From: Actinomycetota bacterium | GTDB lineage: Bacteria; Actinomycetota; Actinomycetes; Nanopelagicales; Nanopelagicaceae | Direction: 5' to 3' | Assembly: GCA_009699575.1 (NCBI GenBank) | Contig: WLNY01000005.1 | Location: 23,280-87,279 of the forward strand | Length of the DNA: 64,000 nt | Position numbers and translations under genes: made by a program | Part shown: in pieces, positions 28,204 to 62,634 of the stretch | Position numbering within the stretch: position 1 is the first letter of the stretch | Layout: the number at the start of each line of letters is the position of its first letter | The notes under the pieces: model-generated | Told to the model about the DNA's origin: nothing | Databases searched by the model: none | Seen by the model: only the letters and a program-made list of their open reading frames with translations

Positions 28204-28241
28204 AAAACGTGACGTGAGTTGTTTTCCTTTAGGATGTCACA

Positions 28242-29483
28242 GTGAATTCATGGGCCGAAGTGAGCATTCCACCTGTTTCGTCATCCTTTATTTTTCCAAC
28301 ACTTTCCTTGTTTAACTCATCCTCAGAGCGAGTAGAGGAACTTCCCAAGAAGTCTGTATATCGGATGTATGTATGCGGAATTACTCCATATGATGCAACG
28401 CATTTAGGTCATGCTGCAACATATATAACTTTCGATCTCATCAATCGCTATCTCACGGCTGCAGGTGCGCGAGTCCATTTTGTGGAAAATATTACTGATA
28501 TAGATGACCCCCTTCTTGAGAGAGCAAACCGCGATGGCGTTGCTTGGCAAGATTTGGCTCAATCTCAAATAGAGCTCTTTCGTGGAGATATGGTTGATTT
28601 GCATGTTATTCCACCCAGTAATTACATAGGCGCAGTGGAGGCAATCCCATTAGTAGTTAATGCGATAACTCGATTGCAGGAGCGCGGAACAATTTACCCA
28701 GTTGATGCTGATCTTTATTATGAAGTGAGAGCCGATCCACAATTTGGTACGAGAGCTCATTTGGATGATGAAACATCAGAGCGGATTTTTTCAGAACGAG
28801 GCGGCGATCCTCACAGAGCCGGAAAAAAAGATCCTTTGGATTGCCTCGTGTGGATGTCACAACGTGAAGGCGAACCAGGTTGGGATAGTCCCTGGGGCAC
28901 AGGTCGCCCAGGTTGGCATATTGAATGTAGCGCGATCGCTCTTCACTACCTGGAGAGCGAAGTGGGCGATGACTATTCCATAGATATTCAGGGCGGAGGA
29001 AGTGACCTTATTTTTCCTCATCACGAGATGGGAGCATCCCAAGCACATATTCTTGGCGGTCATCCGTTCGCGCGCTTATATGTCCATTCTGGAATGATTG
29101 GCTTAGATGGCGAAAAGATGAGTAAGAGCCTTGGTAATTTAGTGTTCGTTTCCAAATTAGTTGCTAGTGGTGTTAACCCTATGGCGATTCGACTTGCTTT
29201 GTTATCTGGAGAGTACCGCGCTGATCGCATGTGGACTTCTAGTCAGTTAGACAGTGCCATCGAATTCTTGGATGAATTACGGATAGCACTATCGCGGGAA
29301 GAAACAGCACCAACGTCTCATGTCATCCAGGAAATTGTGAATCATATGTCTAACGACCTAAATACCGTCGGCGCATTGGAATCAGTCAAGAGTTGGGTCC
29401 GCGAGACGAATCGTGGTTCTACTGGAGGGTCTCCAGGAGAACTCTCCAGAGCAATCGATGCTCTTTTAGGTATTGCGATTTAA
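28242..29483 (+). CDS. mshC: Cysteine--1-D-myo-inosityl 2-amino-2-deoxy-alpha-D-glucopyranoside ligase
   Basis: CysS-like but MshC signature [33 protein letters not shown]; synteny. Confidence 0.92.
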
Positions 29484-30343
29484 TCTTCTTTTTGACGCCG
29501 AAGGTATCGTTCAAATTCTCGCGCAATCGAATCACCGGTCGCATCTGGAATACTTGATGCATCAGTATTTTCTTCAAGCTCTTTTATATAACTAGCCACA
29601 TCGGAATCTTGTTCCGCCAACATGTCCATCGACTCTTCCCAGCGTGTTGTTAAATCTGGTAATTCACCCTCAGGTATACGAACTCCCATGAGATCTTCGA
29701 AGGCATTGATTAGCGCAAGTGTTGCCTTTGGTGATGGTGAAGACGATGCGTAATGGGGCAAAGGTGCCCACAGCGAGACAGCATCTATTCCTCGCTTATG
29801 GGCTCCATCTAAAAGTACTCCCAAAATTCCAGTGGGTCCTTGATACGTGCTGACGCCCACTCCTAATCTGGCACTCAGATCAGGATGTGAACCAGTAGCG
29901 CTAATAGAAATGGGGCGAGTATGGGGAGAGTCGGAAAGCATTGAACCAAAGGTGACAATCATCGAAACTTCGAGATCGTCAAAGAAGTCAAGCAGTTCCT
30001 TGGAAAACTGCTTCCATCGCATAGATGGCTCTGCACCCTGCACAACAACGAGATCAAAGGGGAGTGAGGGCGTTTGAATACTCATGACACGAACATCGGG
30101 CCAGGTGAGTTCACGTACTTGGCCCTGATCAATACGAACGAGCGGTCGATTAACTTGATAATCAAAGTAATCCTCGGAATCTACGTGCGCAATGAGTTCG
30201 GGCGCATCGGAAGAGGAATCCTTTGCCCACACTGAGAGAAAGTGTGAAGCGGCGTAGGTCGCAGCTTCACCTGCGTCACTCCAACCGGAGAATGCAAGGA
30301 GTGCAACCGGATCGCGTAGTTGCGGTATCGAGTGAATATCCAC
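29480..30343 (-). CDS. PAC2 family protein
   Basis: LLAFSGWSDAGEAATYAASHF..., VVQGAEPSMRWKQFSKELLDF, mshC neighbourhood. Confidence 0.88.
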   Translation of the reverse strand: MDIHSIPQLRDPVALLAFSGWSDAGEAATYAASHFLSVWAKDSSSDAPELIAHVDSEDYFDYQVNRPLVRIDQGQVRELTWPDVRVMSIQTPSLPFDLVVVQGAEPSMRWKQFSKELLDFFDDLEVSMIVTFGSMLSDSPHTRPISISATGSHPDLSARLGVGVSTYQGPTGILGVLLDGAHKRGIDAVSLWAPLPHYASSSPSPKATLALINAFEDLMGVRIPEGELPDLTTRWEESMDMLAEQDSDVASYIKELEENTDASSIPDATGDSIAREFERYLRRQKED

Positions 30344-30370
30344 ACGGTAAGCCTACGGTAAAGTTCATTC

Positions 30371-31048
30371 ATGGCTACTCATGTGAAAGCAGAATTCTAT
30401 AGCGCTGTTTTCTTCGATATGGATGGACTGTTCGTTAATTCAGAACCCTTGTGGCTTGAAGCGGAAACAGAGCTCATGGCTAAGCACGGAGTTCAATGGA
30501 CACTTGACGATCAAGCACATTGCATCGGCGGGCCGTTATCAAAAGTTGGGGGATATATGTCTCAACTCGCTTTAGGTGTTGAGAGCCAAGAGTATTTTAC
30601 TGAGGCAGTTATCGAGCAAGTTCGAACAAAGATGACTCAGGGTACTCCACTCATGCCTGGGGCCATCGAACTGACGCGTGACCTTCACGCTAATGGAGTT
30701 TCAATCGCTTTGGTGTCAGCTAGTCCGAGAGTTTTAGTAGATGCGGTTTTAAATAACATCCCAGAACATTTCTTTTCCTTCTCTATATCGAGTTCAGAAG
30801 TCTCTATGCCTAAGCCGGATCCGGAAGCGTACGTTAAAGCAGCCCACGATTCGGGTGTCAATATTTCTGATTGCTTGATCTTCGAAGATTCGCTGACGGG
30901 TGTAACCGCGGCGAAAGCAAGCGGTGCACATGTCATTGCGATTCCCCATATAGTTCGAGTCGAAGCTTCGGAACGAGTTCACGTGGGGAAAAGTTTAGAA
31001 GAATTTTCGTTCAATTCTTTACAGACCCGCTTCTCACGTCACGTTTAA
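30371..31048 (+). CDS. HAD family hydrolase
   Basis: AVFFDMDGLFVNSEPLW, SASPRVLV, PKPDPEAY, IFEDSLTGVTAAKASG. Confidence 0.93.
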   Translation: MATHVKAEFYSAVFFDMDGLFVNSEPLWLEAETELMAKHGVQWTLDDQAHCIGGPLSKVGGYMSQLALGVESQEYFTEAVIEQVRTKMTQGTPLMPGAIELTRDLHANGVSIALVSASPRVLVDAVLNNIPEHFFSFSISSSEVSMPKPDPEAYVKAAHDSGVNISDCLIFEDSLTGVTAAKASGAHVIAIPHIVRVEASERVHVGKSLEEFSFNSLQTRFSRHV

Positions 31049-31053
31049 TAAAA

Positions 31054-31806
31054 CTATTGATGCGCTGGACAGATATCCTTAAATGAACACCAGTCACATA
31101 AACGTGAAGGCTTAGGCTTCCAATCATCTTTGTCCGTTGCACTCCAAATCTGTTCAGCAATTGAAATGAGGGTGGATTCAGTAGCGTCGAGGTCCTTTTG
31201 GGTTGGAGAATTCTTAACAAGCTTTCCATCGCCTAGGTAGATTAATTGAAGGAGTTTCGGTAGCACACCTTCTCTCTTCCAATACAGTAAGGCATAGACA
31301 CGAAGTTGAAAAAGTGCCTTCTCTTCCCAGCCGGGTTTGGGAGCCTTGCCCGTTTTGTAATCAATAATTCGAACTTCACCCGTTGGTGCTACATCTAAAC
31401 GATCGACATATCCATGCAGATATAATTTTTCAGTAAGGTCGCATTCGAGATGTATCTCTCTATGGGTGGCTTCGAATGTTTCCGGCTTCTCTAGGTGGAA
31501 ATACGTCTCTAATAGTGAACCAGCGCGATCGAGCCACTCCTTCTCGCTAGTAATGAGGCCTTGAAGTTCGGGGGATTCATGCAGTTGGGTAACCCAACGA
31601 CTTGGAAGAAGTTCAATGGCGGTTTCTAGCGTTCTCTTTGCGGGGGGCGAATCGAAAAGGTCATGCAAAACAGTATGAACGAGGGTCCCTCGATGGGCAT
31701 CAAGACTTGGTTTCTCAGCCAATTTATCTATCGCGCGATATTTGTAGAGTTGAGGGCAATTTTGAAAATCATTGACTCGGCTAGGGGAGAGGCGCAACTC
31801 ATTCAC
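31054..31806 (-). CDS. RecB family exonuclease (PD-(D/E)XK)
   Basis: LSPSRVNDFQNCPQLYKYRAIDKL, GTLVHTVLHDLF, RIIDYKTGK, CDWCSFKDICP; GTG start at 31806 avoids overlap with divergent trmI. Confidence 0.85.
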   Translation of the reverse strand: MNELRLSPSRVNDFQNCPQLYKYRAIDKLAEKPSLDAHRGTLVHTVLHDLFDSPPAKRTLETAIELLPSRWVTQLHESPELQGLITSEKEWLDRAGSLLETYFHLEKPETFEATHREIHLECDLTEKLYLHGYVDRLDVAPTGEVRIIDYKTGKAPKPGWEEKALFQLRVYALLYWKREGVLPKLLQLIYLGDGKLVKNSPTQKDLDATESTLISIAEQIWSATDKDDWKPKPSRLCDWCSFKDICPAHQ

Positions 31807-31857
31807 CTTCGCGAAGATACTCGCTATGAAAGCCTGTTGCACGCCTAGAATAGTGCC

Positions 31858-32709
31858 GTGTCGAACAATGGGTATTTCGCAGCAGGGGATCGAATCCAAC
31901 TCACTGACCCGAAAGGCAAACTCTACAGTTTCACAATCACACCGGGTAAAGAGTGGCATACCCACAAAGGTTGGATTGTGCACGATGAACTCATTGGCCT
32001 TCCAGAGGGAAGTGTTCTCAGTACATCAGGTGGTCTTAAATTTACAGCTTTTAAACCTTTACTTGGAGATTACGTTCTATCAATGCCACGCGGTGCAACG
32101 ATTGTTTACCCAAAAGATGCCGCAATGATTCTAGGGGTTGCAGATATATTTCCTGGCGCGCGTGTATTAGAAGCTGGTGTTGGCAGCGGTGCTCTTACGA
32201 TTTCGCTTGTGCGTGCTGTTGGCGAATCAGGACGAGTACACAGCGTTGAAAGACGTGAAGAATTCGCTGATAATGCAGTCGCAAATATCGAACACTATTT
32301 CTCAGGAAGACCTGCGCAATGGACGTATGCGATTGGGTCGCTTCAGGATCAAGAAATCACCGATGTTTACGATCGAGTTATCCTTGACATGCTTGCACCG
32401 TGGGAGTGCGTAGATTTCGCAGCGAATGTATTAAGGCCAGGTGGAGTTTTTCTCGCTTACGTCGCAACTACAACCCAGCTCTCAGCCACTGCTGAAGCTC
32501 TTAAGTCAGATGGTAGATTCACTGAACCAGAAAGTTCTGAAACTATTGTTCGAGGTTGGCATCATGAAGGACTTGCCGTGAGACCTCAGCAGAGAATGAT
32601 TGGACATACAGGTTTTCTTATAATTAGCCGCCGCATGGCGCCGGGTGTTGAAGTTCTCGCTAGAAGAAGACGCCCAGCAAAAGGAGCGTACGGTGTCGCG
32701 GAAGAGTGA
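31858..32709 (+). CDS. trmI: tRNA (adenine-58-N1)-methyltransferase
   Basis: MPRGATIVYPKDAAMILGVADIFPGARVLEAGVGSGALTISLVRAVG. Confidence 0.93.
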   Translation: MSNNGYFAAGDRIQLTDPKGKLYSFTITPGKEWHTHKGWIVHDELIGLPEGSVLSTSGGLKFTAFKPLLGDYVLSMPRGATIVYPKDAAMILGVADIFPGARVLEAGVGSGALTISLVRAVGESGRVHSVERREEFADNAVANIEHYFSGRPAQWTYAIGSLQDQEITDVYDRVILDMLAPWECVDFAANVLRPGGVFLAYVATTTQLSATAEALKSDGRFTEPESSETIVRGWHHEGLAVRPQQRMIGHTGFLIISRRMAPGVEVLARRRRPAKGAYGVAEE

Positions 32710-33634
32710 GCGTCTAGTCAATTTAACAATTGCGCTTCTAGCAACTAAACGTTTTCTAACGAAAGCCGAAATTTTCAGAAACATCGAAGGATACGAGGGC
32801 TCTGATGAGTCGATGGAGAGAATGTTTGAACGAGATAAAGATGAGTTACGCAAATTAGGAGTAGTCATAGAAGTGGGGGGAATTGACCCACTTTTTGATG
32901 ATGAAGCTGGGTACAAGATTCGTCCTGAAAGTTACGCTTTAGATCTTGGGGCCTTGAGTTCAAGTGATATTGGTCTACTCTCATTAGCAACACAGGCGTG
33001 GCGTGGCGCTGCCCTGGCTGACACCGCGCAGTCTGCGTTACGCAAATTTCAATCGCTAGGGTTGGATTCAGATCTATCGTCAATCCCTTCGCTAGCCCCG
33101 CACCTCATTTCGGATTCGAATCTCATTGATGACATCGCACAGGCGATACTCTCTCGAAGTTCAATATTATTTGGCTATTTCAATGCTCAATTGGTTTCGG
33201 AAAGGCGCGAGGTTAACCCTTACGCCATGGCAGCCCGAAGTGGCTATTGGTACCTCATCGGTTTTGACCTGACAAAGAAGGCAATGCGCGTATTTCGGTG
33301 TGACCGAATCGAAGAGTCCATTCAAGTTTCTCCAATTAAGAATTCTTTTGAAATACCCACTGATTTCGATTTGGCTCCATTCCTTAGTTCTTCGGAAAAT
33401 TTATTAGTGGCTATGGTAAAAATTCGAATTGGTAAGGGTCAAGCTTTGCGAAGCACCGCAAAAATTATCTCCAGTGATGATGAGTGGGATACGGTCGAGC
33501 TCAATTATATTGACGAAAAGAACTTGATTGAAAGAATTTTGTGGCATCTAGATGATGCAGTGCTCCTAGAGCCTGAAAGTATGCGCCACACTATTTCGCA
33601 ATCATTGCAAGCGATTGTGCATGCACATGGCTAG
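32693..33634 (+). CDS. pafB: WYL-domain transcriptional regulator PafB
   Basis: N-terminal HTH, WYL-type RSGYWYLIGFDLTKKAMRVFRCDRI; tandem WYL gene pair before tatA; GTG at 32693. Confidence 0.85.
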   Translation: MSRKSERLVNLTIALLATKRFLTKAEIFRNIEGYEGSDESMERMFERDKDELRKLGVVIEVGGIDPLFDDEAGYKIRPESYALDLGALSSSDIGLLSLATQAWRGAALADTAQSALRKFQSLGLDSDLSSIPSLAPHLISDSNLIDDIAQAILSRSSILFGYFNAQLVSERREVNPYAMAARSGYWYLIGFDLTKKAMRVFRCDRIEESIQVSPIKNSFEIPTDFDLAPFLSSSENLLVAMVKIRIGKGQALRSTAKIISSDDEWDTVELNYIDEKNLIERILWHLDDAVLLEPESMRHTISQSLQAIVHAHG

Positions 33635-34559
33635 AGAAGAGCCAGGGCACAATACTCAAGTATCCAGATTATTGGACTTGGTTCCTTTTCTGATTTCACA
33701 TCAAGGAGTCTCGTTGCAAGAATTAGCAGCGACTTTTGATGTGAGCATCTCGCAGATTACCAATGATCTAAATACTTTATGGATGTGTGGTCTACCTGGT
33801 TACACCCCCTTGGAGCTAATAGATTTAGATTTTGACTCAGGTTTTGTCTCCATAAGCAACGCACAGATTCTTAAAAATCCGAGATCTTTGACTTCTATCG
33901 AGGCACTTTCGGTTTTAATCGGTTTGGAATTGATCTCACAATCTGCGGCATTAGAAAATGAGCAAATGCGTGAGTCAATTTCGGAACTGTCAAAGAAGAT
34001 CGCACGTGGCATGAGTACGCATGTTCCAATTGAAGTGCTTCCCAGTGTTGACGTGTTCATACGTAAAGAGCTGGAGAAAGCTATCTCGACACGATCTTCG
34101 CTCATTGTTGATTACTATTCACCTACTCACGATGCTTTAACTAGCCGTGAGATTGCACCTTTGGAGATTATTTTCTCAAAGGGTTTCGAATACGTTTCAG
34201 CATTTAACCTCGAACCGCACGGTCTGCGACTGTTTAGAGTCGATCGCATTCACAGCGTTGCCCCTGGACATACGCCCGTAGCTCTTTCACTAGAGGCCGC
34301 ATCGGCGCATGGTGCTCCTTCAATTGAGGTCTCTGTGTTGGTTAAAAAAGATGCTCGAATCGCTAAGGAGCGACTAGGTCTGACGGTGGATCAGGTAACT
34401 CAGGCTCAACTTCATGCAATTGCCATTGATGTCTATAGCCTTAATTGGGTCAAGCGGGTAGTGGTGGCCTCCGCTGGAGGCATCGAAATTGGGGAGCCTC
34501 AGGAGCTTCGAGACCTCGTACGAAGCCAAGCTGAGACCATATTGAGCCTCTACTCCTAA
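33627..34559 (+). CDS. pafC: WYL-domain transcriptional regulator PafC
   Basis: RLLDLVPFLISHQGVSLQELAATFDVSISQITNDLNTLWMCGLPGYTPLELID. Confidence 0.9.
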   Translation: MAREEPGHNTQVSRLLDLVPFLISHQGVSLQELAATFDVSISQITNDLNTLWMCGLPGYTPLELIDLDFDSGFVSISNAQILKNPRSLTSIEALSVLIGLELISQSAALENEQMRESISELSKKIARGMSTHVPIEVLPSVDVFIRKELEKAISTRSSLIVDYYSPTHDALTSREIAPLEIIFSKGFEYVSAFNLEPHGLRLFRVDRIHSVAPGHTPVALSLEAASAHGAPSIEVSVLVKKDARIAKERLGLTVDQVTQAQLHAIAIDVYSLNWVKRVVVASAGGIEIGEPQELRDLVRSQAETILSLYS

Positions 34560-34680
34560 TAATTGATGCGATTTCGTTACAGAGATCGAATACCCAAAGA
34601 ACTCTTCCCTCATGTACCTTTGTCTTTTAGAGCACCACGTGTTGACCCCCTTGGACACACTTAGACCGAAAGAGAGCCCC

Positions 34681-34866
34681 ATGTTCCTCAAAGAACCAAG
34701 CCACATTTTGATTCTGCTTCTCGTAGTTCTTTTCCTATTTGGCGCGAAGCGTCTTCCGGACTCAGCTCGATCTATCGGCAAGTCAATGCGTATCTTTAAG
34801 AGTGAAATAAAAGATATTAACCAGGACGAGAAGAAGACAAGCCCAGAAGACTCGTCAGAGAAGTAA
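34681..34866 (+). CDS. tatA: Sec-independent protein translocase TatA
   Basis: [37 protein letters not shown]; start at 34681 (ORF track starts too early). Confidence 0.93.
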
Positions 34867-34871
34867 ATAGC

Positions 34872-35654
34872 ATGTCGACCTCCTTCGGTGGTCGCATGCC
34901 GCTCTTCGACCATATCCGCGAATTTCGTCGTCGGATAGTTCGTGCATCTATTGCGATTCTTCTTGCATCCATAGCTGGGTGGTTTTTTTACAACACAATA
35001 ATTACTACTTTAGCCCTGCCTGTTTGCGACCTAGCTCTCGCTCAATCAACTGGAGCGACTCATTGTGGGTCTCTTTATATTAACGGAGTTCTTGGTCCAC
35101 TTAATCTACAAATAAAAGTATCTCTAATCATTGGGGTAATAGTGTCGGCTCCACTGTGGCTCTACCAGCTATGGGCTTTTATCGCGCCTGCTTTACACCG
35201 TAAGGAGAAGCTTAGGTCAGTTCTTTTCCTAGCTGTGGCAACGCCGTTCTTTGCAATTGGCGCAACCCTTGGTTACAAAATATTGCCAGTGGCGATAAAG
35301 GTTCTTTTCGGTTTCACACCTTCAGCACTTTCTAACCTTGTTAAATTTGATGATTACTTGGATTTCGTATTGCGAATTATCCTTCTTTTTGGTTTGGCAT
35401 TTGAGTTACCCGTATTTCTGCTCTCGCTTAACCTCATTGGATTCCTCCGAGGAACTTCGATTCTCAAACCTTGGCGTGCATGGGTTTTCTCAATTGTGCT
35501 TTTCACGGCCGCTTTTACACCGACTGCTGATCCAATAACAATGGCAGTATTAGCGGTTCCTCTAATCATCTTGTATTTTGCCGCAGGAGTCATAGCTCTT
35601 TTTAACGATAAGCGCAGAGATAAACGTGCGCTTCTATTAGAAGACTCCCAGTAA
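34872..35654 (+). CDS. tatC: Sec-independent protein translocase TatC
   Basis: MPLFDHIREFRRRIVRASIAIL, PLWLYQLWAFIAPALHRKEK. Confidence 0.95.
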   Translation: MSTSFGGRMPLFDHIREFRRRIVRASIAILLASIAGWFFYNTIITTLALPVCDLALAQSTGATHCGSLYINGVLGPLNLQIKVSLIIGVIVSAPLWLYQLWAFIAPALHRKEKLRSVLFLAVATPFFAIGATLGYKILPVAIKVLFGFTPSALSNLVKFDDYLDFVLRIILLFGLAFELPVFLLSLNLIGFLRGTSILKPWRAWVFSIVLFTAAFTPTADPITMAVLAVPLIILYFAAGVIALFNDKRRDKRALLLEDSQ

Positions 35655-36524
35655 ATGTGGGGGATTGCTATCAATCCAATGTCTGGCCAAGGAAAAGGCT
35701 CCACGATAGGAAAGGCGGTAGCGGGATACTTCACTAAACATGACCTCGAATATCAGATTATTTCCTCGTCGTCATCGGCTAAATTTAGAGAGTCGTTGAA
35801 TATATTTGTTGAAAAATATCCACAAGCCCTTGGTGTCCTTTCAGTAGGTGGCGATGGGCTCGCACATATGGTTTTACAAGCTGTTGTTCCAAAATCAATC
35901 GCTTTTGGAATTGTTCCGGCAGGAACAGGAAATGATTTCTATAGGGCTCTTGGTTGGAAAGATGAAGAGCTGGAAACATTGTTGGACTCGATTACCACCT
36001 CGCCTGCGACTCGGATTGATCTGGGACAAGTGGATAGCGAATGGTTTGGCGCAATACTTTCCTGTGGATTCGATGCCGTCGTAAACGAACGGGCGAACTC
36101 TCTCAGTTGGCCAAAGGGCCCTTCACGATACAATGTATCTATCGCACTCGAACTTCCACGGTTTACTCCTGAACATTTTGAAATAACACTCGATGATCAA
36201 ATTATTTCAACACAGGCAATGCTAATAGCAGTTGGAAATGGTTCATCGTATGGGGGAGGAATGAAAGTGTGCCCCAATGCCTATATGCATGATGGTCTAT
36301 TTGATGTGATGATTCTCAAACCAGTTTCTAAATTGGAATTTTTAAGAGTTTTCCCTCGAGTGTATGCAGGTTCACATATTCATCATCCTCAAGTAGACAT
36401 CTACCGCAGCAAACGAGTGCGTATCGAAGCGCAAGCTGTGGCTTACGCTGATGGTGAAAGAATTGGACAACTGCCGGTTGACGCGCACTGTGTTCCAGAA
36501 GCGGGATTAACATGGACAAGGTGA
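35655..36524 (+). CDS. Diacylglycerol kinase family lipid kinase
   Basis: INPMSGQGKG, SVGGDGLAHMVLQ, GIVPAGTGNDFYRALG. Confidence 0.92.
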   Translation: MWGIAINPMSGQGKGSTIGKAVAGYFTKHDLEYQIISSSSSAKFRESLNIFVEKYPQALGVLSVGGDGLAHMVLQAVVPKSIAFGIVPAGTGNDFYRALGWKDEELETLLDSITTSPATRIDLGQVDSEWFGAILSCGFDAVVNERANSLSWPKGPSRYNVSIALELPRFTPEHFEITLDDQIISTQAMLIAVGNGSSYGGGMKVCPNAYMHDGLFDVMILKPVSKLEFLRVFPRVYAGSHIHHPQVDIYRSKRVRIEAQAVAYADGERIGQLPVDAHCVPEAGLTWTR

Positions 36525-38896: not shown

Positions 38897-39795
38897 CTTT
38901 AATGCTCCTTGACAGTGCCTCTCTTTGGTATCGCGCCTATTACGGAATGCCTGACACTCTTGTCGCCCCTGATGGTGCGCCAGTAAATGCAATTCGCGGG
39001 TACTTAGACATGACGGCAAGACTCCTTTCGTTATACAAGCCGAACCGACTTGTAGCGTGCATCGAGGGGGACTGGCGGCCTTCTTGGAGGGTGGATATTT
39101 TTCCAGGGTATAAAGCTAATCGAGTCGATGCCACTGATGGCGAAGAGGAGGAACCAGATACCCTCACGCCACAAATTCCTATTCTTCTAGATATCTTGGA
39201 TGCTTTTGGAATCGCTCTAGTAGGAGTTGATGATTATGAAGCCGATGACGTCATGGCAACTTTCGCCGTCAAGGAATCAGGACCTATAAGAATCGTCACT
39301 GGAGATAGAGATCTCTTCCAGTTAGTAGATGATTCTCGCGATGTAAAAGTTGTTTACCTTGCAAAAGGAATTTCCCAACACGATTTGGTAGATGTGAGTT
39401 GGGTGGCTAATAAGTACCAGATTCCCGGTGAACGGTACGCGCTTTTCGCCATGTTTAGGGGAGACCCGTCAGATGGTTTACCTGGCGTCAAAGGAATAGG
39501 CGAAAAAGGCGCGGCTCTCATTGCCAATAGCTTCGCCAATGTCGATGATGCGATGTCTGCAGCACTTGAGTCACATATTTCTTTGCCACCAGCTTTAGCA
39601 AAAAAGATTATTGCTGGCGCAGATTATTTGAAAATAGCACCGACCTTGGTTCATTGTGCCAAAGATGTTGCGCTTCCAAAAATAGACTTACAAGTTCCGG
39701 AAAGACCAAAGAATCTGGATGAAATTTATCAATTTCAAAGCACTTACGCACTGGGAGCTAGTATCGATCGAATGATTGCAGCTCTTGGATGGTAA
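38893..39795 (+). CDS. 5'-3' exonuclease
   Basis: LLDSASLWYRAYYGMPDTLVAPDGAPVNAIRGYLDM, DDYEADDVMAT, GDPSDGLPGVKGIGEKGAA. Confidence 0.93.
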   Translation: MTLMLLDSASLWYRAYYGMPDTLVAPDGAPVNAIRGYLDMTARLLSLYKPNRLVACIEGDWRPSWRVDIFPGYKANRVDATDGEEEEPDTLTPQIPILLDILDAFGIALVGVDDYEADDVMATFAVKESGPIRIVTGDRDLFQLVDDSRDVKVVYLAKGISQHDLVDVSWVANKYQIPGERYALFAMFRGDPSDGLPGVKGIGEKGAALIANSFANVDDAMSAALESHISLPPALAKKIIAGADYLKIAPTLVHCAKDVALPKIDLQVPERPKNLDEIYQFQSTYALGASIDRMIAALGW

Positions 39796-41237
39796 GTGCT
39801 TTGCTTGCAATTATTTCTGGCGCAACTCTTTCATGTGCCTTTGCACCAATTGATCAATGGTGGCTCGCTCCAATAGCAATAGCAATTTTTCTATATTCAG
39901 TAACTAAAACACGGCGAAGTTATCTTGTTGCCTTTATTTTTGGATTAACATTTAATTTGCTCACCTTGTCGTGGAGCGGGCGTTATGTAGGAGTAATACC
40001 GTGGGCGATTCTTTCAATCTTGGAATCTCTTTTCTTTATTCCTTTAGGATTTATTTCATGGAAAAGAGAAAGATTTTCGCGCATCTTTCTGTTACCTCCT
40101 GTTTATCTTTTGATGGAGCTCATGCGGACCCACTACCCATTCGGGGGCTTCGGATGGAATCGAATTGCGTTTAGTCAAGCTGATGCGCCCTATGCAGATG
40201 TGGTTAGATTTATTTCAACTTCCGGATTGACTTTGTTGACACTGTATTTTGGAATTGCTGTGTACCTATTGTTTTCCAAACCACATTCATGGGCATTGGT
40301 ATCCATAATAATATTAATAACACTGTGCATCTCTATTCCTAACTCTGCATTAATAGGCAAACCATTCGATGTTCTTGCAATTCAAGGAAATGTTCCACGC
40401 CCTGGACTAAATTTCAACGCTCGTGCGACTGAGGTTTTTAACCTTCACGTACAGCAAACACTGCGCAGCGTGTCACATCAAACACAGTTACCTGATGTGA
40501 TCGTATGGCCCGAAAATGCAGTAGATGTGGATCCATACAGCAATCCCTCCGTTGGATTGACAATCACAAAAATTGTCGACGAATTCCGCACCCCTTTAAT
40601 ATTTGGAGCGGTTCTTCATCACACCGGTGTACTTCAAAATGCATCGATTTTGTGGAATCCAGATCAGGGGAGTGGTTCTATCTACATAAAACGGCATTTG
40701 ACGCCATTTGGTGAATACATGCCACTTCGAACCTTGGCCGAGATAGTCTCCCCTTACGCTAAGGATGTCGCAGATTTCACGCCTTCAAATGAGATTGTTA
40801 CTCATCGAGTCAATGAAGCAGTTATCGGTCCAGTCATCTGTTTTGAATTAATTGACGATGGCGCGGTCAGAACAATGTCAGCTGCTTCTAATTTCCTACT
40901 TGTACAGACAAACAGTGCAACATTTGCCGACACTGCGGAAAGCGAACAACAACTCGATATCACCAGGATTAGAGCCATGGAAAACGACCGCTATGCAGTA
41001 AGTATTTCCACTACGGGCGTCAGTGCCTTTGTTACTAGTTCGGGCCACGTGTACAAGAAAAGCAGTGTCGACATTGCTCAATCACTTCAAGGTACCGTTC
41101 AACTTGCGCCAGTAGACTCGCAAACACCTTCAAATAGAGTGGGCGGCTACTTTCCGTTAATAAATCTAGGCACTAGCTTGGGCCTATATGGGCTTTCGCG
41201 CAGACGTAAAGAGATCCTGACTAGCGCCGATAAGTAA
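39789..41237 (+). CDS. lnt: Apolipoprotein N-acyltransferase
   Basis: Hydrophobic N-terminus, YPFGGFGWNRIAFSQ, DVIVWPENAVDVDP, LTPFGEYMPLR, ICFELI. Confidence 0.92.
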   Translation: MVSALLAIISGATLSCAFAPIDQWWLAPIAIAIFLYSVTKTRRSYLVAFIFGLTFNLLTLSWSGRYVGVIPWAILSILESLFFIPLGFISWKRERFSRIFLLPPVYLLMELMRTHYPFGGFGWNRIAFSQADAPYADVVRFISTSGLTLLTLYFGIAVYLLFSKPHSWALVSIIILITLCISIPNSALIGKPFDVLAIQGNVPRPGLNFNARATEVFNLHVQQTLRSVSHQTQLPDVIVWPENAVDVDPYSNPSVGLTITKIVDEFRTPLIFGAVLHHTGVLQNASILWNPDQGSGSIYIKRHLTPFGEYMPLRTLAEIVSPYAKDVADFTPSNEIVTHRVNEAVIGPVICFELIDDGAVRTMSAASNFLLVQTNSATFADTAESEQQLDITRIRAMENDRYAVSISTTGVSAFVTSSGHVYKKSSVDIAQSLQGTVQLAPVDSQTPSNRVGGYFPLINLGTSLGLYGLSRRRKEILTSADK

Positions 41238-41250
41238 CATTATGTAAAGT
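41223..41250 (+). other. dif: Candidate chromosome dimer resolution site (dif)
   Basis: AGCGCCGATAA-GTAACA-TTATGTAAAGT: 11-6-11 XerC/central/XerD layout; strand bias switches here; xerD gene in window. Confidence 0.85.
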
Positions 41251-41273: not shown

Positions 41274-41306
41274 CCAGTATCTGACTTAAGCGAAGTCAGA
41301 TACTGG
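41274..41306. terminator. Perfect 14-bp hairpin between convergent lnt and gcvP; includes the gcvP stop codon
   Basis: CCAGTATCTGACTT(41274-41287) aagcg AAGTCAGATACTGG(41293-41306); no clear U-tract. Confidence 0.7.
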
Positions 41307-44174
41307 TGGGCACGAGCAAACCAGATTGCGATCACCGAAGGCGCCATCTATTCGACCGACAGTCGGCCAATATTTAGAACGCAATCCAATTATCTCGCCC
41401 GGAATCAGACCTTCTAAGGTCTCTGGAAAGGCTCCAACTTCCCTTGGGTACTCTCGTTGCCAATCTGAAGTTACTACATCTGCAATTGTGTGAGGGGCGA
41501 ATGCTAGGGCGCTCTGCTCATGCGAAATGCGACCTTCTTGTACATCCATAATCTCCCCGTGAATCGAAATCATTGCTTGAATGAATCTTTCGATCTCGGC
41601 TATATCTTCACTTTCAGTCGGCTCAACCATTAATGTTCCAGCAACGGGAAAACTCATCGTCGGAGCGTGAAAGCCGTAGTCCATGAGCCGCTTTGCTACA
41701 TCATCGACAGTTACTCCACTTTCTTTCGTTATGTCGCGAAGATCTAAAATACATTCATGTGCAACGCGTCCGTTATTGCCTGTGTAGAGCACTGGGAAAT
41801 ATGGATTTAATCTCTGTGCAATGTAATTAGCTGACAAGATTGCAACCTGAGTTGCGTGCGTGAGTCCTTCGCCACCCATCATTCGAATGTATGCCCAAGA
41901 GATCGGCAAAATACTTGCTGATCCATAGGGTGCGGCGCTTACTGGTCCAGGTCCTGTTGATGGCCCAGCAGTCGAATCATGTGGATGGTTCGGTAAAAAA
42001 GGCGCTAAATGTTCTCGCGAGATCACTGGGCCAACACCTGGTCCCCCACCACCATGTGGAATGCAAAAAGTTTTATGAAGATTCAAATGCGATACGTCTG
42101 CACCAAATTTCCCAGGCTGTGCCAAACCAACGAGTGCATTGAGATTTGCACCATCAACATAAACTTGGCCTCCCGCATCGTGAATAAGTCCACATATCTG
42201 AGTAATTTCCGATTCGAAAACTCCGTGAGTTGACGGATATGTGACCATTAGCGCTGCCAGGTTTATGGAATGTTCAGCAATTTTCGATTTCAAATCATCG
42301 AGGCTTACATTTCCGTGTTCGTCACAAGAAATTACAACAACTTTCATCCCTGCCATTACAGCACTGGCTGCATTGGTCCCGTGAGCACTCGATGGAATGA
42401 GACATATCGTGCGATGAATATCGCCTCGAGAATCATGATAATTTCTTATTGCTAGCAACCCAGCAAACTCTCCTTGACTGCCGGCGTTTGGCTGTAATGA
42501 CACTGCGTCATAGCCAGTGATTGCGAGCAACCAATCAGATAATTCTTGGATTAACTCGCGTGATCCAACGCTTTGCTCCAATGGTGCGAAGGGATGTAAC
42601 GAAGAAAATTCTGGCCAGGTAACGGCTTCCATTTCTGTCGTTGCATTGAGTTTCATTGTGCATGAGCCAAGAGGAATCATTGTTCGATCCAGAGCTAAAT
42701 CGCGATCTGAAAGTGTCCGTATATAGCGCAACATTCCGGTCTCTGAGTGATTCGTGTTAAAAATGGGATGAGTCAAATATGATGAAGTACGAACGAGGGT
42801 TGCGGGAATGGCGGTACTCCCCTGTCGGATTTCCACTGTTTCAATACCAAAAATTTCTGAAAGATCAGCCAAGGTTTTAGCACTTGTTAATTCATCAAAT
42901 GAAAAACCAACGTGCAAAGAGTCAATAGCTCGCAGATTTATTTTTAACTCTGCAGCTTTTTTATGAATAGCATCAGCATCTCGCACCTCAACTACACACG
43001 TGTCAAAAAAATGTGAGTTCTCAATTGTGAAACCAGCACTTTTCAAAGCGGAAGCAAATGAAAATGTTTGGCTGTGTATTCGCGAAGCGATTGTTCTGAG
43101 TCCTACCGGTCCATGCCACATGGCGTAAAACGCGCTCATCACTGCAAGGAGTACTTGGGCAGTGCAAATATTGCTTGTAGCCTTATCGCGACGAATATGT
43201 TGTTCACGTGTTTGAAGAGCTAACCGAAATGCCGGAGACCCATGTGTATCAACGCTTTGACCTATAAGCCGACCAGGTATAGAGCGCTCTAGCCCTTCGC
43301 GGACCGCCATAAATCCAGCGTGCGGCCCTCCAAATCCCATGGGTACTCCGAAACGTTGAGCAGATCCAATTGCAATATCGGCTCCCCACTCCCCTGGTGC
43401 GACAATAAGAGTCAATGCAAGTAAATCTGTCGCTGCAATTAAAAGAGCGCCTTTAGCATGAACAGCATGAGCGAGTTCAGCAAAATCATTTATCTCGCCG
43501 CGTGTGTCAGGGTATTGAACAAGCACTCCAAAAATTTCAGATGAATCAGAAAATTTATCGTTTGCATTAAATTCTTCAATGCGTATATTGAGTGGCTTTG
43601 CTCGGGTATGTATAACGGCTTTCGTTTGTGGATGAACGTTTTGATCTATGAGAAAAATTGCTTCATCCCCACCTTTGAAAACTCTACGAGCAAGAGTCAT
43701 TGCTTCGGCTGCGGCAGTTGCTTCATCGAGCATTGAAGCATTTGCGACAGGCAACCCAGTTAAATCACACACAGTGGTTTGGAAAGCGAAGAGTGCTTCT
43801 AATCGTCCCTGCGAAATCTCTGGCTGATACGGTGTATACGCCGTATACCACGCTGGGTTTTCAAGAACGTTTCGCAAAACTACAGGTGGTGTGATTGTCG
43901 CGTAGTAACCGGTACCTATTAAAGAAGTAAATAAAATATTCTTATCCGCTAATGCACGAAGTGCTCCTATGGTCTCAACTTCGTTCAGGGGTGCAGGTAA
44001 TGCACTTGATAATCTATGACTCATTGCGATATTGCTCGGAAGTACGTCAGCGATAAAGGAATCCATGTCCTGATATCCAAGCTCAAGGAGCAAAGCTTTT
44101 TCTTGCTCACTCGAAGGCCCTATGTGGCGACGTTCAAATGCATCATATGGAAGTTGTGTGCTCTTACCTGACAT
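41286..44174 (-). CDS. gcvP: Glycine dehydrogenase (aminomethyl-transferring), P protein
   Basis: [81 protein letters not shown]. Confidence 0.97.
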
Positions 44175-46100: not shown

Positions 46101-46604
46101 TTACTTCTCCCCTGATTGTTTTTGATGAACGTGTGAAACAAAAATCATATGGAACTTTCCAACTTGAATTTGATCTCCATTGCCAAGAATACTTTGTGTG
46201 ACACTTGTATTATTTAGATAGGTCCCATTGAGGCTTCCTAAATCACTTATTTCAAAAAGCGCCTGCGAATTAAAGGCGATAGCGCAATGCTTTCTCGATA
46301 CCGTTACATCGTCAAGAAATATTGAACTTTCCGGAGATCGCCCAATTGCAACCCCTTCAGATGTAATCAAGAAACGTGAACCTTTCTGCGGGCCCCTGTG
46401 AATAATAATCATCGCTCTGCTGGAATCACCGTTTTGGATCTCCTCGATGGTCGCACGTTCTTGAGCAGTAGCGGTCTGAAGATATTCATCAACTTCATTT
46501 GTTGACACGGGCTGCGAAAGAGACCTTAAGCCCAGATGTAGTGTTGAGGTTAGTTCGCGCTCATCAGGCTCTGCCGACACGTTCACTCCCCCTTTTTCAC
46601 TCAC
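46101..46604 (-). CDS. garA: FHA domain protein GarA/OdhI-like
   Basis: TSTLHLG, GSRFLITSEGVAIGRSPESSIFLDDVTVSRKHCAI, LGSLNGTYLN; start codon approximate. Confidence 0.9.
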   Translation of the reverse strand: MSEKGGVNVSAEPDERELTSTLHLGLRSLSQPVSTNEVDEYLQTATAQERATIEEIQNGDSSRAMIIIHRGPQKGSRFLITSEGVAIGRSPESSIFLDDVTVSRKHCAIAFNSQALFEISDLGSLNGTYLNNTSVTQSILGNGDQIQVGKFHMIFVSHVHQKQSGEK

Positions 46605-46646
46605 CTTAAACTTAAGGGTGACACTAGAGAAGTATGTGGGTCCTGG

Positions 46647-47027
46647 TCAAGCCGTGATTTCACCGTATTCTGAGGCACCTAAGAGTTCAGTTGGCGCTTG
46701 TGATACTTCTACATCCACGAGCCACCCAGCACCGTATGGATCGGAATTAATCGTCTCGGGAGCATTATTGAGAGATTCGTTAACCGCAGTCACGGTTCCA
46801 CTGACTGGTGCAAAGATTTCAGAAACGCTCTTAGTCGATTCCACTTCACCACACACATCACCAGCGATAATTTTTTCACCAACTTTAGGAAGTTGCACGT
46901 AGACGATGTCTCCGAGTGCGCCTTGCGCGAAATCTGTAATCCCAAAACGAAGCACGGTGTCCTGAGCGGTAGCTCCAACCCATTCGTGTTCCTTTGTGTA
47001 TTGCAAATCATCTGGGATGAGTGACAT
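46647..47027 (-). CDS. gcvH: Glycine cleavage system H protein
   Basis: YTKEHEWVGA, GITDFAQGALGDIVYVQLPKVG, EVESTKSVSEIFAPVSG. Confidence 0.96.
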   Translation of the reverse strand: MSLIPDDLQYTKEHEWVGATAQDTVLRFGITDFAQGALGDIVYVQLPKVGEKIIAGDVCGEVESTKSVSEIFAPVSGTVTAVNESLNNAPETINSDPYGAGWLVDVEVSQAPTELLGASEYGEITA

Positions 47028-47072
47028 GTCCGCTCCTAATCGTAATTCCGGGATATTGTGTAATGGTACAGA

Positions 47073-47666
47073 TTATTCAAGTACTTCAAAGCTGGACCCG
47101 ACTCTAATCCTTCGAAGTCCAATGCGGAAGTAGCTCATACCCGTGTACACATAGAGCGCAACTCCCCATATCGCGAATGACCAACCCACAACGTAGGCCA
47201 CTGACCCAAAGGTTGTCTTGGCAAGGCCGAGAAGAAGAAAAGGGAAGGCATAAAGCAAAGTAAAGGTCGCTGCCTTGCCAAGAAAGGTGACCGTCAGCAA
47301 TCCATATCCTTTGCCTTTTAGAACTAAGGCAAGTAGAGCTAGAAGAATATCTCTGATGACTAATGTTGCTATTAGCCATAGTGGAATGACATCTCGCATA
47401 TAGAGAACAACAAGAGTAGAGACTATATAGAGCCTGTCTACTGCAGGATCCAACATCGCACCAAGGCTAGATTCTTGGCCCCAAGCTCTAGCTATCTTTC
47501 CATCAAAGTAATCTGAAGCGCCACCAAGTGCTAAAAGCAATACGGCCCAACCGTCCTGATGCGTCACAAGAGCTAGGTAGAAAAAAAGTGGAATTCCACA
47601 AGCCCGCAAAATACTCAACACATTAGGTAACGTCCAATTTGTTCCGGAACCCATTCGCATCATCAT
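47073..47666 (-). CDS. CDP-alcohol phosphatidyltransferase family protein
   Basis: TLPNVLSILRACGIPLFFYL, GGASDYFDGKIARAWGQESSLGAMLDPAVDRL. Confidence 0.9.
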   Translation of the reverse strand: MMMRMGSGTNWTLPNVLSILRACGIPLFFYLALVTHQDGWAVLLLALGGASDYFDGKIARAWGQESSLGAMLDPAVDRLYIVSTLVVLYMRDVIPLWLIATLVIRDILLALLALVLKGKGYGLLTVTFLGKAATFTLLYAFPFLLLGLAKTTFGSVAYVVGWSFAIWGVALYVYTGMSYFRIGLRRIRVGSSFEVLE

Positions 47667-47675
47667 GAGAATTCT

Positions 47676-49631
47676 TTAGTCACGCTCTTTTACGCGGACA
47701 GCAACTTGTACTGGAGTGCCTGGAAATGAGAATTCTTCGCGTAAACGTCGTTCAATAAATCGACGGTACGACGCTTCAATCCAGCCACTGGAGAAAACCA
47801 CAAATTTCGGAGGAGCAATACCAGCTTGAGTTGCGTAATAAACCTTCGGTTGTTTTCCTCCACGGACGGGTGGCGGAGTCTGCCCGATCAGTGCGCCTAG
47901 GAAGGAATTTAACTTACTCGTTGGAACTCTCTTCTCCCAACTATCAAGGGAGGTTCTCAAAGCCGGAGCTAGGCGATCTCTATGCCATCCAGTTTTCGCT
48001 GCAACGTTAACTCTCTGAGCCCATTCGACTTGATCAAGATGTCGATCAATTTCTCGATCAAGCTGGTCTCGTCTATCTTCATCAACCAAGTCCCATTTAT
48101 TCATCACGATAACCATGGCTTTTCCAGCCTCTTCGACCATAGTAATGATTCGCAAATCCTGCTCGGAAATGGGTTCGCTTGCATCAAGAACCACCACCGC
48201 AACTTCACAACGCTCCAAGGCAGCCTGCGTACGAAGTGTGGCGTAATAATCTGTACCACTTGCTTGATTCGCCCGCTTACGCAAACCAGCAGTATCAACA
48301 AATCTCCAAATAGATCCCCCGAACTCTATTAACTCATCCACGGGATCCCTAGTAGTGCCAGCAATTTCGGAAACGATTGCTCGCTCTTCACCAGCTAATG
48401 CATTGAGAAGACTTGATTTACCGACGTTTGGACGACCAATGAGGGCAACACGCCGATAACCATCTTGCACCTGTGCTCCACCTACTTCAGGAAGAACGGA
48501 AACAATTTTATCTAAGAGATCACCGCTACCGCGCCCGTGAAGTGCTGAAACAAAATATGGCTCACCCAGTCCTAAATTCCATAGCGCGTGCGCATCCGAC
48601 TCTTCTCGTTCGCTGTCCACTTTGTTAGCGATCAAAATAATCGGTTTTTTTGCCTTGCGTAACTCTTGAACGAGTACATCGTCTTCATCTAGTGCACCAA
48701 CTTGTGAGTCCACCACAAAACATAGAACATCAGATTCGCGCATAGCTATTTCGGCGCCGGCGCTTACTTGAATAGAGATGCCATCTGGCTTTGATTCCCA
48801 GCCACCTGTGTCCATCACGATGAAGCGACGACCGCCCCATTCGCATTCATATTGAATTCTGTCTCTCGTCACGCCAGGCGTGTCTTCAACTATGGCTTCT
48901 CTACGGCCAATGAATCGATTTATTAATGTGGATTTACCAACATTGGGACGTCCCAAGATTCCAACTATTGGAAGCCCAAGAAGTGAACGCTCTTTCAGAA
49001 GTTCCCAAATTCGTTCGACGGTGTCATCCAAGGAAAGTTGCGTTGAATCAATCACAACACTGTCCTGAGCAATTGTGAGAGGAGAGGCGCTCCGGGTGGA
49101 ATCAATGACATCTCTTGAATTCAAAGACTTCTTCACTTCCGTGACGCCAACTTCAATCTCTTTATCTCGACGAAGAGCGCGCGCTTCAAGATCAGCGGTG
49201 AGATAAATCTTCAGTGCTGAATCAGGTGCTACGACGGTTCCGATATCTCTTCCTTCTACTACGATGCCACGTGTCGCCTCTGAAATATATTTTCTCTGTA
49301 TCGCGAGTAACTCTTTGCGAACTTCCAACATCGCTGCAACAACGCTTACATGCCCGGTAACTTCCTGCGAGCGAATCTCGTCTGTTATCTCGGTATCCCC
49401 TGCGAATAGTTGCGGGGTAAGTGGATTGCAAACGAAACGCAAAGGTGAGCGCTTTAATGCGGCAACTATTTCAGCAGGATCTTTGCACTCCTCGCGTTGA
49501 GCTACCCACGTTGCGCCTCGATATAAGGCGCCTGTGTCTAAGTAGTTCCAACCAGCACGGATAGCTACCAACTTAGAAGCGCTCGATTTTCCAGCTCCGC
49601 TCGGGCCATCTACTGCTACGACAATGCCCAT
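47676..49631 (-). CDS. Bifunctional cytidylate kinase / GTPase Der fusion
   Basis: [19 protein letters not shown] plus two GTPase domains [15 protein letters not shown] and [17 protein letters not shown] in one frame. Confidence 0.95.
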
Positions 49632-49657
49632 GCATTCATTCTATTGCCTGGTGTGAG

Positions 49658-50722
49658 TTATGAATTACGTGAAGCGTGAATGCTCCAACCCCGCGTGCTT
49701 AGATGTGTAGTTAACTTATAGGCATCCAAAGAGGAAAGAATAGCCAAGGTCACCAGCCCCGTAAATTGACCCGGTGTATGTTCGATAGTTAGATCTTCCA
49801 CATTGACTCCAGCGACTGCACACTCGTTAAAAAGAGCTGCTAATTGCCCAGGTTTATCTTGGATCACAATCGGCACATATGTGTAGTCACGAGCCGTCCC
49901 GCCATGCTTTCCCGGTATGCGTTCTCGACCCTTATTTCCATCTTCAATAAGTGCGTGAGCTACACGTGAGTCATTGAGGCTCTCAACAAGAATGGTTAAG
50001 TCTTTTTGTAGACTTATCAATAAAGGACGGATATGGGACGCATTACTTGAAAGTATTTCCTCCCAAAGCACCGCACTTGAGCCGGCCAAGCGCGTCATAT
50101 CCCTTAATCCCTGACCCGAAAGCTCTAGCCACGTGGGCTCTCCCGAAGTGAGCGCCTTAGCCAAGAGTGAGGCAAGGATCTGAGGAAGATGTGAGACCAG
50201 CGCGACTGCCTTATCATGCTCGGCAGGCGGCATGTGAAAAGTAATCGCCGAACACATTTCGGCCACCTCAGTTGCTATGGCAATGGCATGCTCACTTGTT
50301 AAAAGAGTGGGTGTGATGATCCACGGTCTCGAGGCAAACAGATCGCCGCGAGCGGACTGCGCCCCTCCCACCTCTCGGCCAGCCATGGGGTGAGTGAAGC
50401 AAAATCTCTCCTCTAGACCATCTATTTCTGACACGTCTACTAGAGGTTTAGTTTTAACACTGCTAATATCTATAAATATCGAGTTGGGATTTAATGCAAA
50501 TTCACTCTTAATAACCTTTTTGAATGCTCCAATAGGAACCGCAATGATAATTAAGTCGGCGACGTCAGGCTCCCCCGAATAACCAACTAATTCTTGGGCC
50601 AGCGCCTGCGCCTCTTCATCGGAGTCGACCATCTCGACATCTACACCTTTGGCCGAGAGAGCCAGGCCTATAGACGTTCCAATGAGGCCAGAACCGATGA
50701 TTCGAACGCTCTTTAGCCCCAT
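49658..50722 (-). CDS. tyrA: Prephenate dehydrogenase with C-terminal ACT region
   Basis: VRIIGSGLIGTSIGLALSAKG, FCFTHPMAGREVGGAQSARGDLF, VPIVIQDKPGQLAALF. Confidence 0.92.
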   Translation of the reverse strand: MGLKSVRIIGSGLIGTSIGLALSAKGVDVEMVDSDEEAQALAQELVGYSGEPDVADLIIIAVPIGAFKKVIKSEFALNPNSIFIDISSVKTKPLVDVSEIDGLEERFCFTHPMAGREVGGAQSARGDLFASRPWIITPTLLTSEHAIAIATEVAEMCSAITFHMPPAEHDKAVALVSHLPQILASLLAKALTSGEPTWLELSGQGLRDMTRLAGSSAVLWEEILSSNASHIRPLLISLQKDLTILVESLNDSRVAHALIEDGNKGRERIPGKHGGTARDYTYVPIVIQDKPGQLAALFNECAVAGVNVEDLTIEHTPGQFTGLVTLAILSSLDAYKLTTHLSTRGWSIHASRNS

Positions 50723-50732
50723 AAGTACTCCA

Positions 50733-51095
50733 TTATTGAGCTAAATCCTGGCGCAAAACACTTGCCCCACCCAGATAAACATGTTCGATTTGTTCAGGGG
50801 ATCGAGATGAATTGCAATGAATGAGCGCTCGGATAGTCCGCGCAAGGGCTCCTGGGACGTCTATTTCTACTGCACATAAGAGCGGAACTAGCTCGAAACC
50901 AAGTTCTCTCGCCGCTCGCGCTGGAAAGGTGGCATTGAGGTCTGCGGTGGCTGTGAAAATAACCGAGATAATTTCTTGTGGGGCCAACTCATTGACTTGA
51001 AGAATCCGAGTGAGAAGCTCCTTTGAGCCTTGCGAAATGGCCTCCTCGGTGTTGGACTCAACTTGAATCGCTCCACGTATCGCTCGCACAGTCAT
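50733..51095 (-). CDS. aroH: Chorismate mutase, AroH type
   Basis: VRAIRGAIQVESNTEEAISQGSKELLTRIL, SVIFTATADLNATFPARAARELG; start at MTVRAI. Confidence 0.93.
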   Translation of the reverse strand: MTVRAIRGAIQVESNTEEAISQGSKELLTRILQVNELAPQEIISVIFTATADLNATFPARAARELGFELVPLLCAVEIDVPGALARTIRALIHCNSSRSPEQIEHVYLGGASVLRQDLAQ

Positions 51096-51135
51096 GTGAG
51101 AATCGTAGCGTGACTTTGAGTAAGAGTGCGGCATC

Positions 51136-51358
51136 GCCTTAGTGCTTTAAACAATAAAATAGTTTATACGTTTAGCGATAAATGGTTATTAATCCAAGTC
51201 GACCAGGGTGCTTTTGAATTCCATTGCCATCCCAATTATATAGATTTATCGATTTTATCCAGCCCAATAACTTGTATTTTTGGCGACTTATCGATAATTC
51301 AACCTGGAATATAGATAAAACGATAAAAAGACTATTGTGAAAAAAACCTTAAATAGAC
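51136..51358. other. AT-rich intergenic region with repeated GATAAA/TTATCG motifs
   Basis: About 31% GC by hand count over 51141-51358; several GATAAA/TTTATC copies including TTATCGATAA. Confidence 0.7.
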
Positions 51359-52090
51359 TTATTTCTTTAAATCTAAAGCTGTATAGAGATTAGTTATCTC
51401 TCCTTCGTTGAGGTCTCGCCAACGACCTTCGAGAGTTTCCCCAAGCGAGATAGGACCGAATTTGGTTCTGATCAATCGCAGCACATCTACGCCTACCGCC
51501 TCCATTAGGCGACGGATAATGTGGTACCGGCCTTCGTGGATGCTTACTTCAATCCAGGCTGGAGAGAGCTGTTTAAAGGTCAGGACTCGACCCATCCCAT
51601 CCTCGAGTTCAACACCTTTAAGTAGTGTTTTCTCGACTCCAACCGGCAATTTTCCATCAAATTCAATGATGTAAGTTTTTTCTAATCCAAAGGATGGGTG
51701 CGTGGCGCGAAAGGTCATATCGCCATCATTTGTAAGCAAAATTAGCCCTTCGGAATCCTTATCAAGGCGACCCACATGAAAAAGCCTCTCGGTCCTTAAG
51801 TTGATGAAATCTGATAGCGATGGCCTTCCTTCGGGATCGAACATGGTTGACACAACACCTCTTGGTTTATGAAGTGCAAGGTAAGTTTTGGTCAAACTTC
51901 GATGAATTGTCTCACCATCAACCATTACTATAGACTTCTCAGCGTCACATTTCGCACCAAGTTCTCTTACGATTTTTCCATCTACGCTGACTCGACCATC
52001 TGATATCAGTTCATCAGCACCTCGGCGGCTGGTTATTCCTGCATCGGCAATAATCTTATTAAGGCGCATTTCGGCCATGTGGCTATCCAT
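51359..52090 (-). CDS. rluB: Ribosomal large subunit pseudouridine synthase B-type
   Basis: MRLNKIIADAGITSRRGADELISDGRVSVDG, HVGRLDKDSEGLILLTNDGD. Confidence 0.94.
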   Translation of the reverse strand: MDSHMAEMRLNKIIADAGITSRRGADELISDGRVSVDGKIVRELGAKCDAEKSIVMVDGETIHRSLTKTYLALHKPRGVVSTMFDPEGRPSLSDFINLRTERLFHVGRLDKDSEGLILLTNDGDMTFRATHPSFGLEKTYIIEFDGKLPVGVEKTLLKGVELEDGMGRVLTFKQLSPAWIEVSIHEGRYHIIRRLMEAVGVDVLRLIRTKFGPISLGETLEGRWRDLNEGEITNLYTALDLKK

Positions 52091-52168
52091 TCTCGACAGT
52101 CATCGCACGGCTGTGGCCGGGCAAGTGTAAGTGTAGAGGTAAGAAATAGGCTTTGCTAATTGAGCGTG

Positions 52169-52720
52169 TTAGTCGATGAGAGATTCAAGAATCTCATCTA
52201 AGTGATCAAGGTCAGGCAAGTACGGCGCTAAGGCTGGAAGGTCTTCGAGGTTATTAAGACCTAGGCGCTCAAGAAAATAGGTCGTTGTCTTGTATAGAAT
52301 TGCGCCTGTTTCTGGCTCGAGGCCGAATTCCTCCACAAGGCCTCTCGTCACTAAAGTCTTCATGACCGCTTCTACATTAACTCCTCGTATGGCCGAGACT
52401 CTGGCTCGTGAAACAGGCTGGCGATAGGCAATTACTGCCAAGGTTTCAAGAGCTGCCTGGGTTAACCGATTCTGCTGACCGTCAAGCACGAATTTCTCCA
52501 CTACGGAGGCGCACTCAGGATGACTATAGAAGCGCCACCCGCCTGAGATGGCCTTAAGGGTGAACCCTCTCCCTTCGTAGCTCTCTATGAGCGCTGTGAG
52601 CGCCGCCGAGATTTCATCCGTTGGAACTTCAAGGACCGTCGCAAGTGTTATTTCAGTAACTGGCTCGTCCACGACCATCAGAATCGCTTCAATTGAGCGC
52701 AGGAGCTCAGAATTAGGCAT
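52169..52720 (-). CDS. scpB: Segregation and condensation protein B
   Basis: LLRSIEAILMVVDEPVT, FTLKAISGGWRFYSHPECA, LAVIAYRQPVSRARVSAIRGVN. Confidence 0.94.
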   Translation of the reverse strand: MPNSELLRSIEAILMVVDEPVTEITLATVLEVPTDEISAALTALIESYEGRGFTLKAISGGWRFYSHPECASVVEKFVLDGQQNRLTQAALETLAVIAYRQPVSRARVSAIRGVNVEAVMKTLVTRGLVEEFGLEPETGAILYKTTTYFLERLGLNNLEDLPALAPYLPDLDHLDEILESLID

Positions 52721-53627: not shown

Positions 53628-53687
53628 TTGCTCACTACGTGGCTAACGCGTACAGTCGGCCGAAAGGTATAGAAAGAGGTTTCTCGC

Positions 53688-55909: not shown

Positions 55910-55917
55910 AAATAACT

Positions 55918-57021: not shown

Positions 57022-57022
57022 A

Positions 57023-58684
<1,662 letters not shown>

Positions 58685-62044: not shown

Positions 62045-62066
62045 GAAAAACCTTCACTTCTCTCTA

Positions 62067-62551: not shown

Positions 62552-62634
62552 TGCTTCCGATCCTTTCGCGCCAGGCGCGCAATTTAACGTGGACAATAAG
62601 GGCATCTGATGCGTGCATCTAATGCTCAGCCTAC

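Follow-up and report, generated by a model that had tools for sequence, protein, structure and literature searches.

A chromosomal dif site that overlaps coding sequence in a freshwater actinobacterium of the Nanopelagicaceae

The 28-mer AGCGCCGATAAGTAACATTATGTAAAGT, located at positions 41223-41250 on the + strand of the window (the whole 64,000-nucleotide stretch of DNA analyzed here), represents the chromosomal dif site of a freshwater actinobacterium of the Planktophila type (Nanopelagicaceae), a reading to which we assign a probability of about 97%. We place the host in this type by kinship, since its named relatives include Candidatus Planktophila lacus along with further genomes of Planktophila and the Nanopelagicaceae. 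At dif sites, chromosomes that are joined are separated by Xer enzymes once replication is over. The kind of element is well known, and what is noteworthy to the specialist is that the site overlaps coding sequence and comes with a candidate KOPS motif.

Results

The site reads AGCGCCGATAA-GTAACA-TTATGTAAAGT, with the XerC-binding arm at 41223-41233, the central 6 bp at 41234-41239, and the XerD-binding arm at 41240-41250, all on the + strand, and both the position and the 11-6-11 layout given in the initial annotation were thus borne out. Compared with reference sequences from Kono et al. 2011 (PMC3025954), the 28-mer agrees with the dif site of Frankia alni (CACGCCGATAATGCACATTATGTCAAGT) at 22/28 positions, with 9/11 in the XerC arm and 10/11 in the XerD arm, and with those of E. 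coli and B. subtilis at 18/28 positions each. The F. alni site has the same layout and the same CGCCGATAA and TTATGT cores, and the likeness to actinobacterial dif sites such as this one extends to the presence of a single copy at the GC-skew switch and of genes for both XerC and XerD. The differences from F. alni lie in the center (TGCACA, compared with GTTACA in the genus and GTAACA in the window), in position 24 of the XerD arm (C in F. alni but A or T in the genus), and in the overlap with coding sequence. The E. coli site (GGTGCGCATAATGTATATTATGTTAAAT) is alike in layout and XerD arm (9/11) but differs in the rest, with a match of only 7/11 in the XerC arm. The counts given earlier for the XerD arm, 10/11 for B. 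subtilis and 9/11 for E. coli, were correct, whereas the XerC arm fits actinobacterial dif better than had been claimed. A scan of the window with the F. alni arms, one of the checks suggested at the outset, returned the candidate as the top match with 19/22 arm positions, followed by a runner-up with 15; in 200 mononucleotide shuffles of the window, 18/22 was reached once, and all other shuffles gave 17 or fewer.

In the host assembly, a 1.39-Mb draft of 49 contigs that is 85% complete and in which the window belongs to the 87-kb contig C45, the 28-mer is unique within 3 mismatches. No better 28-mer exists elsewhere in the window, and the next best one in Planktophila lacus MMS-21-148 is 7 mismatches away. 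Of 90 further genomes in the genus, 75 hold the 28-mer within 3 mismatches, nearly always once, and a looser pattern recovers the site in 6 of the remaining 15, so that the conservation in relatives that the initial annotation had proposed to look for was found in 81/90. The 9 genomes without the site even under the looser pattern are 56-88% complete, and a reversed control of the 28-mer gave zero matches across the 90 genomes. The class-wide pattern CGCCGATAANNNNCATTATGTNA, allowing up to 2 mismatches, is present in 145/178 genomes and 64/71 genera; when reversed as a control, it gives almost no matches. It is missing from all listed members of group f19, which have large genomes of 6-11 Mb and are possibly, at a guess, streptomycetes with linear chromosomes. 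Another class-wide pattern, CGCCGATAANNNNACATTATGTNA, was spaced one base wrong and missed even the window's own site; it was discarded and has no evidential value. Two copies occur in each of the draft genomes G041 (C27/C60) and G069 (C12/C99), on separate contigs and in some cases near contig ends. Since the flanks differ between the copies while gcvP lies beside each of them, the pattern suggests a bin that contains a second strain and not two dif sites in one chromosome.

Conservation is confined to the site itself. Across 70 distinct sites of the Planktophila family, the 28 bp carry an average of 1.86 bits of information per base, compared with 0.36 and 0.30 for the two 40-base flanks, and the borders of the conserved block coincide with those of dif, except for a preference for A/T immediately beyond them. 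Positions 4-11 of the XerC arm are invariant, the XerD arm is conserved save for the alternating position 24, and the consensus center GTTACA is nearly fixed. The T-to-A change at position 14 of the window's site, found in 3/70 sites, creates the TAA stop codon of the overlapping gene. A usable profile of dif for the genus is AACGCCGATAAGTTACATTATGTWAAGT.

The position on the chromosome is that of the terminus region. Whole-chromosome skew was measured in the relative P. lacus MMS-21-148 (1,460,061 bp), the host genome being a draft, and there dif lies at 708,552-708,579 and the maximum of the cumulative GC skew at 710,491, 1.9 kb apart. In nine complete genomes (G014, G015, G040, G052, G065, G068, G083, P. 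lacus, and IMCC26103), dif is found at 0.474-0.526 of the chromosome measured from dnaA. The cumulative GC-skew maximum of the window is at 40262, 961 bases from dif, and remains the highest point when the skew is followed over the entire 87-kb contig; the skew extremum that had been expected near the site was therefore found both here and in P. lacus. A mechanical count of open reading frames gave 32/42 on the + strand to the left of dif and 21/23 on the - strand to the right, which upholds the flip in gene orientation described previously (34/44 on + and 23/25 on -). The earlier statement that the site marks the replication terminus holds for the terminus region and for the site of dimer resolution but not necessarily for the precise point at which forks meet, and Kono et al. 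2011 (PMC3025954) argued that termination need not occur at dif.

Genes for the enzymes that would act on the site are present. A xerD-like tyrosine recombinase gene is located at 54983-55909 on the - strand, 13.7 kb from dif, in agreement with the roughly 14 kb noted before; its product scores 321.5 bits against TIGR02225 (cut-off, 329.6) and lower, 282.9 bits, against the XerC family TIGR02224. XerC is encoded on contig C12 of the host assembly (G000). Both host proteins fall slightly under the NCBIfam equivalog cut-offs, with each closest to the expected family, and FtsK-gamma is encoded in the host and in four relatives. The xerD gene is 13-14 kb from dif in complete relatives also, while Kono et al. 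2011 (PMC3025954) describe a usual trend in which dif has xerC close by and xerD lies close to the origin. In the open-access literature, we found no paper on Planktophila together with XerD.

An independent test of dif is the polarity of FtsK-type motifs. When words with a strand bias were sought along both replichores of P. lacus, GGGGGAG emerged as the most strand-polar 7-mer, with 65 versus 2 copies on the left arm and 103 versus 1 on the right. The best single switch point, at 707,921-710,276, brackets dif and leaves 168/171 copies correctly oriented, and the density of the motif drops with distance from dif. The host's 87-kb contig had no part in deriving the motif, and all 15 of its copies are correctly oriented, 10/10 on the + strand to the left of dif and 5/5 on the - strand to the right. 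The copies inside the window are at 26936, 28005, and 36252 on the + strand (26936-36258) and at 46586, 50570, 52833, 59356, and 63281 on the - strand (46586-63287). GGGGGAG is thus a candidate KOPS for the genus that FtsK of this organism may read. It shares with the E. coli KOPS (GGGNAGGG) that it is a G-rich polar motif that points to dif on both arms and is denser toward dif, but the sequence is a different one. In P. lacus, GGGNAGGG had no clear polarity (19 versus 14), and when the E. coli, Lactococcus lactis, and B. subtilis motifs were tried there, only GAAGAAG was moderately polar, far weaker than GGGGGAG. No paper linking KOPS with GGGGGAG was found in the open-access literature.

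The gene that runs into dif in the window is lnt, encoding apolipoprotein N-acyltransferase (39789-41237, + strand; TIGR00546, 205.8 bits with a cut-off of 132.9). We confirmed the overlap of its 3' end with dif: the stop codon TAA at 41235-41237 lies in the dif center, and the XerC arm makes up the last four codons, S-A-D-K, less one base. Beyond dif, the convergent neighbor is gcvP, encoding glycine dehydrogenase (41286-44174, - strand; TIGR00461, 1340 bits), and this gene is convergent across dif in every relative whose locus reaches that far. Between dif and gcvP, and across the gcvP stop codon, there is a strong hairpin with a near-perfect 14-bp stem (41274-41306; -26 kcal/mol, z of -4.9) and no U-run, which is possibly a bidirectional transcription terminator.

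In 64/65 distinct relatives, the upstream reading frame ends inside dif or runs through it, and all three frames are used. The stop codon starts at -1 relative to dif in 16 loci, where it shares the first two bases of dif; at position 8, as the TAA of the XerC arm, in 17; at position 12 in 2, including the window; at position 27 in 27; and at position 48 in 2. The stop at 27 is formed by the last T of dif and the two bases after it, and in these loci the entire dif site would be translated, usually as NADKLHYVK. The gene upstream of dif is lnt in 33/65 relatives and a Ppm1-like family-2 glycosyltransferase gene in 32/65. When these two states are placed on a GcvP tree, omitting L211, which has merely 94 bases upstream of its dif, the state changes at least 8 times, with 6 of the changes forced by well-supported branches. 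Relatives with lnt abutting dif keep the ppm1-like gene elsewhere, beside xerC in G015 (C1:459145-460355) and G083 (C1:1300838-1302048), and the window's own genome has it on contig C17.

Dif-like sites were also seen on viral contigs. Ten of these, with a GC content of about 47%, have the site GTCGCCGATAATATGCATTATGTAAACT in common (L222, L225, L227, L231, L233, L237, L238, L239, L241, and L248), and in L225 it is found at 5833-5860, directly before the genes for the terminase large subunit and the portal protein. This site is a candidate attachment site of Xer-using phages. In a second group (L221, L234, L243, L246, and L250), the sites are of the ATTTAACATAAT-ACCGCCGATAATAGTCATTATGTTAAAT type, and the XerD arm is repeated alongside as an inverted copy; L221 encodes a primase and a terminase.

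Discussion

Other explanations of the 28-mer must be weighed against a dif site. If it were conserved as coding sequence for the C terminus of Lnt, the likeness to dif would be incidental, and it is true that the XerC arm is coding in this genome and that the entire site is read through in 29/65 relatives. However, the relatives use different frames and two unrelated genes, the stop codon varies among positions -1, 8, 12, 27, and 48, and the conserved block ends at the 28-bp borders, the adjacent A/T bases aside, which makes this explanation very improbable. The frame in which these 28 bp are read varies among species, and selection therefore acts on the DNA and not on the protein. Phage copies do exist, with dif-like cores on 31 viral contigs and some of them beside terminase genes, and the 28-mer might accordingly be a dif-like attachment site used by a phage or mobile element instead of the chromosomal dif. 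We give this just as little credence, as the flanks are conserved host genes (lnt or ppm1 and then gcvP) with no element in any relative inspected, each genome has a single copy, placed where the skew switches, and the exact genus core is on no viral contig searched.

Less credible still is a 28-mer that arose by chance close to the terminus where two convergent genes meet. The arms are short and AT rich, but the site leads the next match in the window by 4 arm positions, scores above all 200 shuffles, and is conserved across the class, and its homologs throughout the genus rule out chance.

The sequence of the chromosomal dif site, its position, uniqueness, and conservation at the DNA level, the polarity of the motif, and the presence of the genes are direct observations, and from these we infer how XerC, XerD, and FtsK would act at the 28-mer. 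FtsK at the division septum would pump DNA toward the terminus, guided to dif by polar motifs, for which GGGGGAG is the candidate, on both chromosome arms. It would activate XerD on the TTATGTAAAGT arm first, with XerC acting on the AGCGCCGATAA arm next, and a crossover across the 6-bp center would resolve the chromosome dimer into two monomers. With dif placed at a convergent-gene junction where no spacer is left, the upstream frame would enter dif and take a stop codon that dif supplies.

Our reading of the overlap is that spacers have nearly gone in this compact genome and that dif supplies the stop codon of the upstream gene by default, because, whatever its register, a frame that enters dif will usually reach a stop codon in the next 30 bases or so. 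Coding overlap is an unusual though not unknown habit for dif, given that 93.92% of the predicted sites in the survey of Kono et al. 2011 (PMC3025954) were noncoding. A bolder idea, which we regard as rather unlikely, is that dif is also a three-frame stop module and a fixed border and that repeated exchange or loss of lnt and the ppm1-like gene has taken place with one edge fixed at dif, a process in which Xer recombination may have participated. The repeated changes between the two genes on the GcvP tree could also result from recombination between lineages. If the idea were true, dif would, besides being the place of dimer resolution, serve as a fixed boundary and as a terminator for reading frames.

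In conclusion, our findings locate both the terminus region and the site of dimer resolution in a freshwater lineage that is highly abundant and hard to grow, and they make a candidate FtsK-guiding motif, GGGGGAG, available for it. The dif-like sites in freshwater phages suggest that Xer-using phages of actinobacteria deserve attention. Coding sequence routinely includes dif in this lineage, in contrast to the published rule that 94% of sites are noncoding, and annotation pipelines that skip genes would therefore miss such dif sites.
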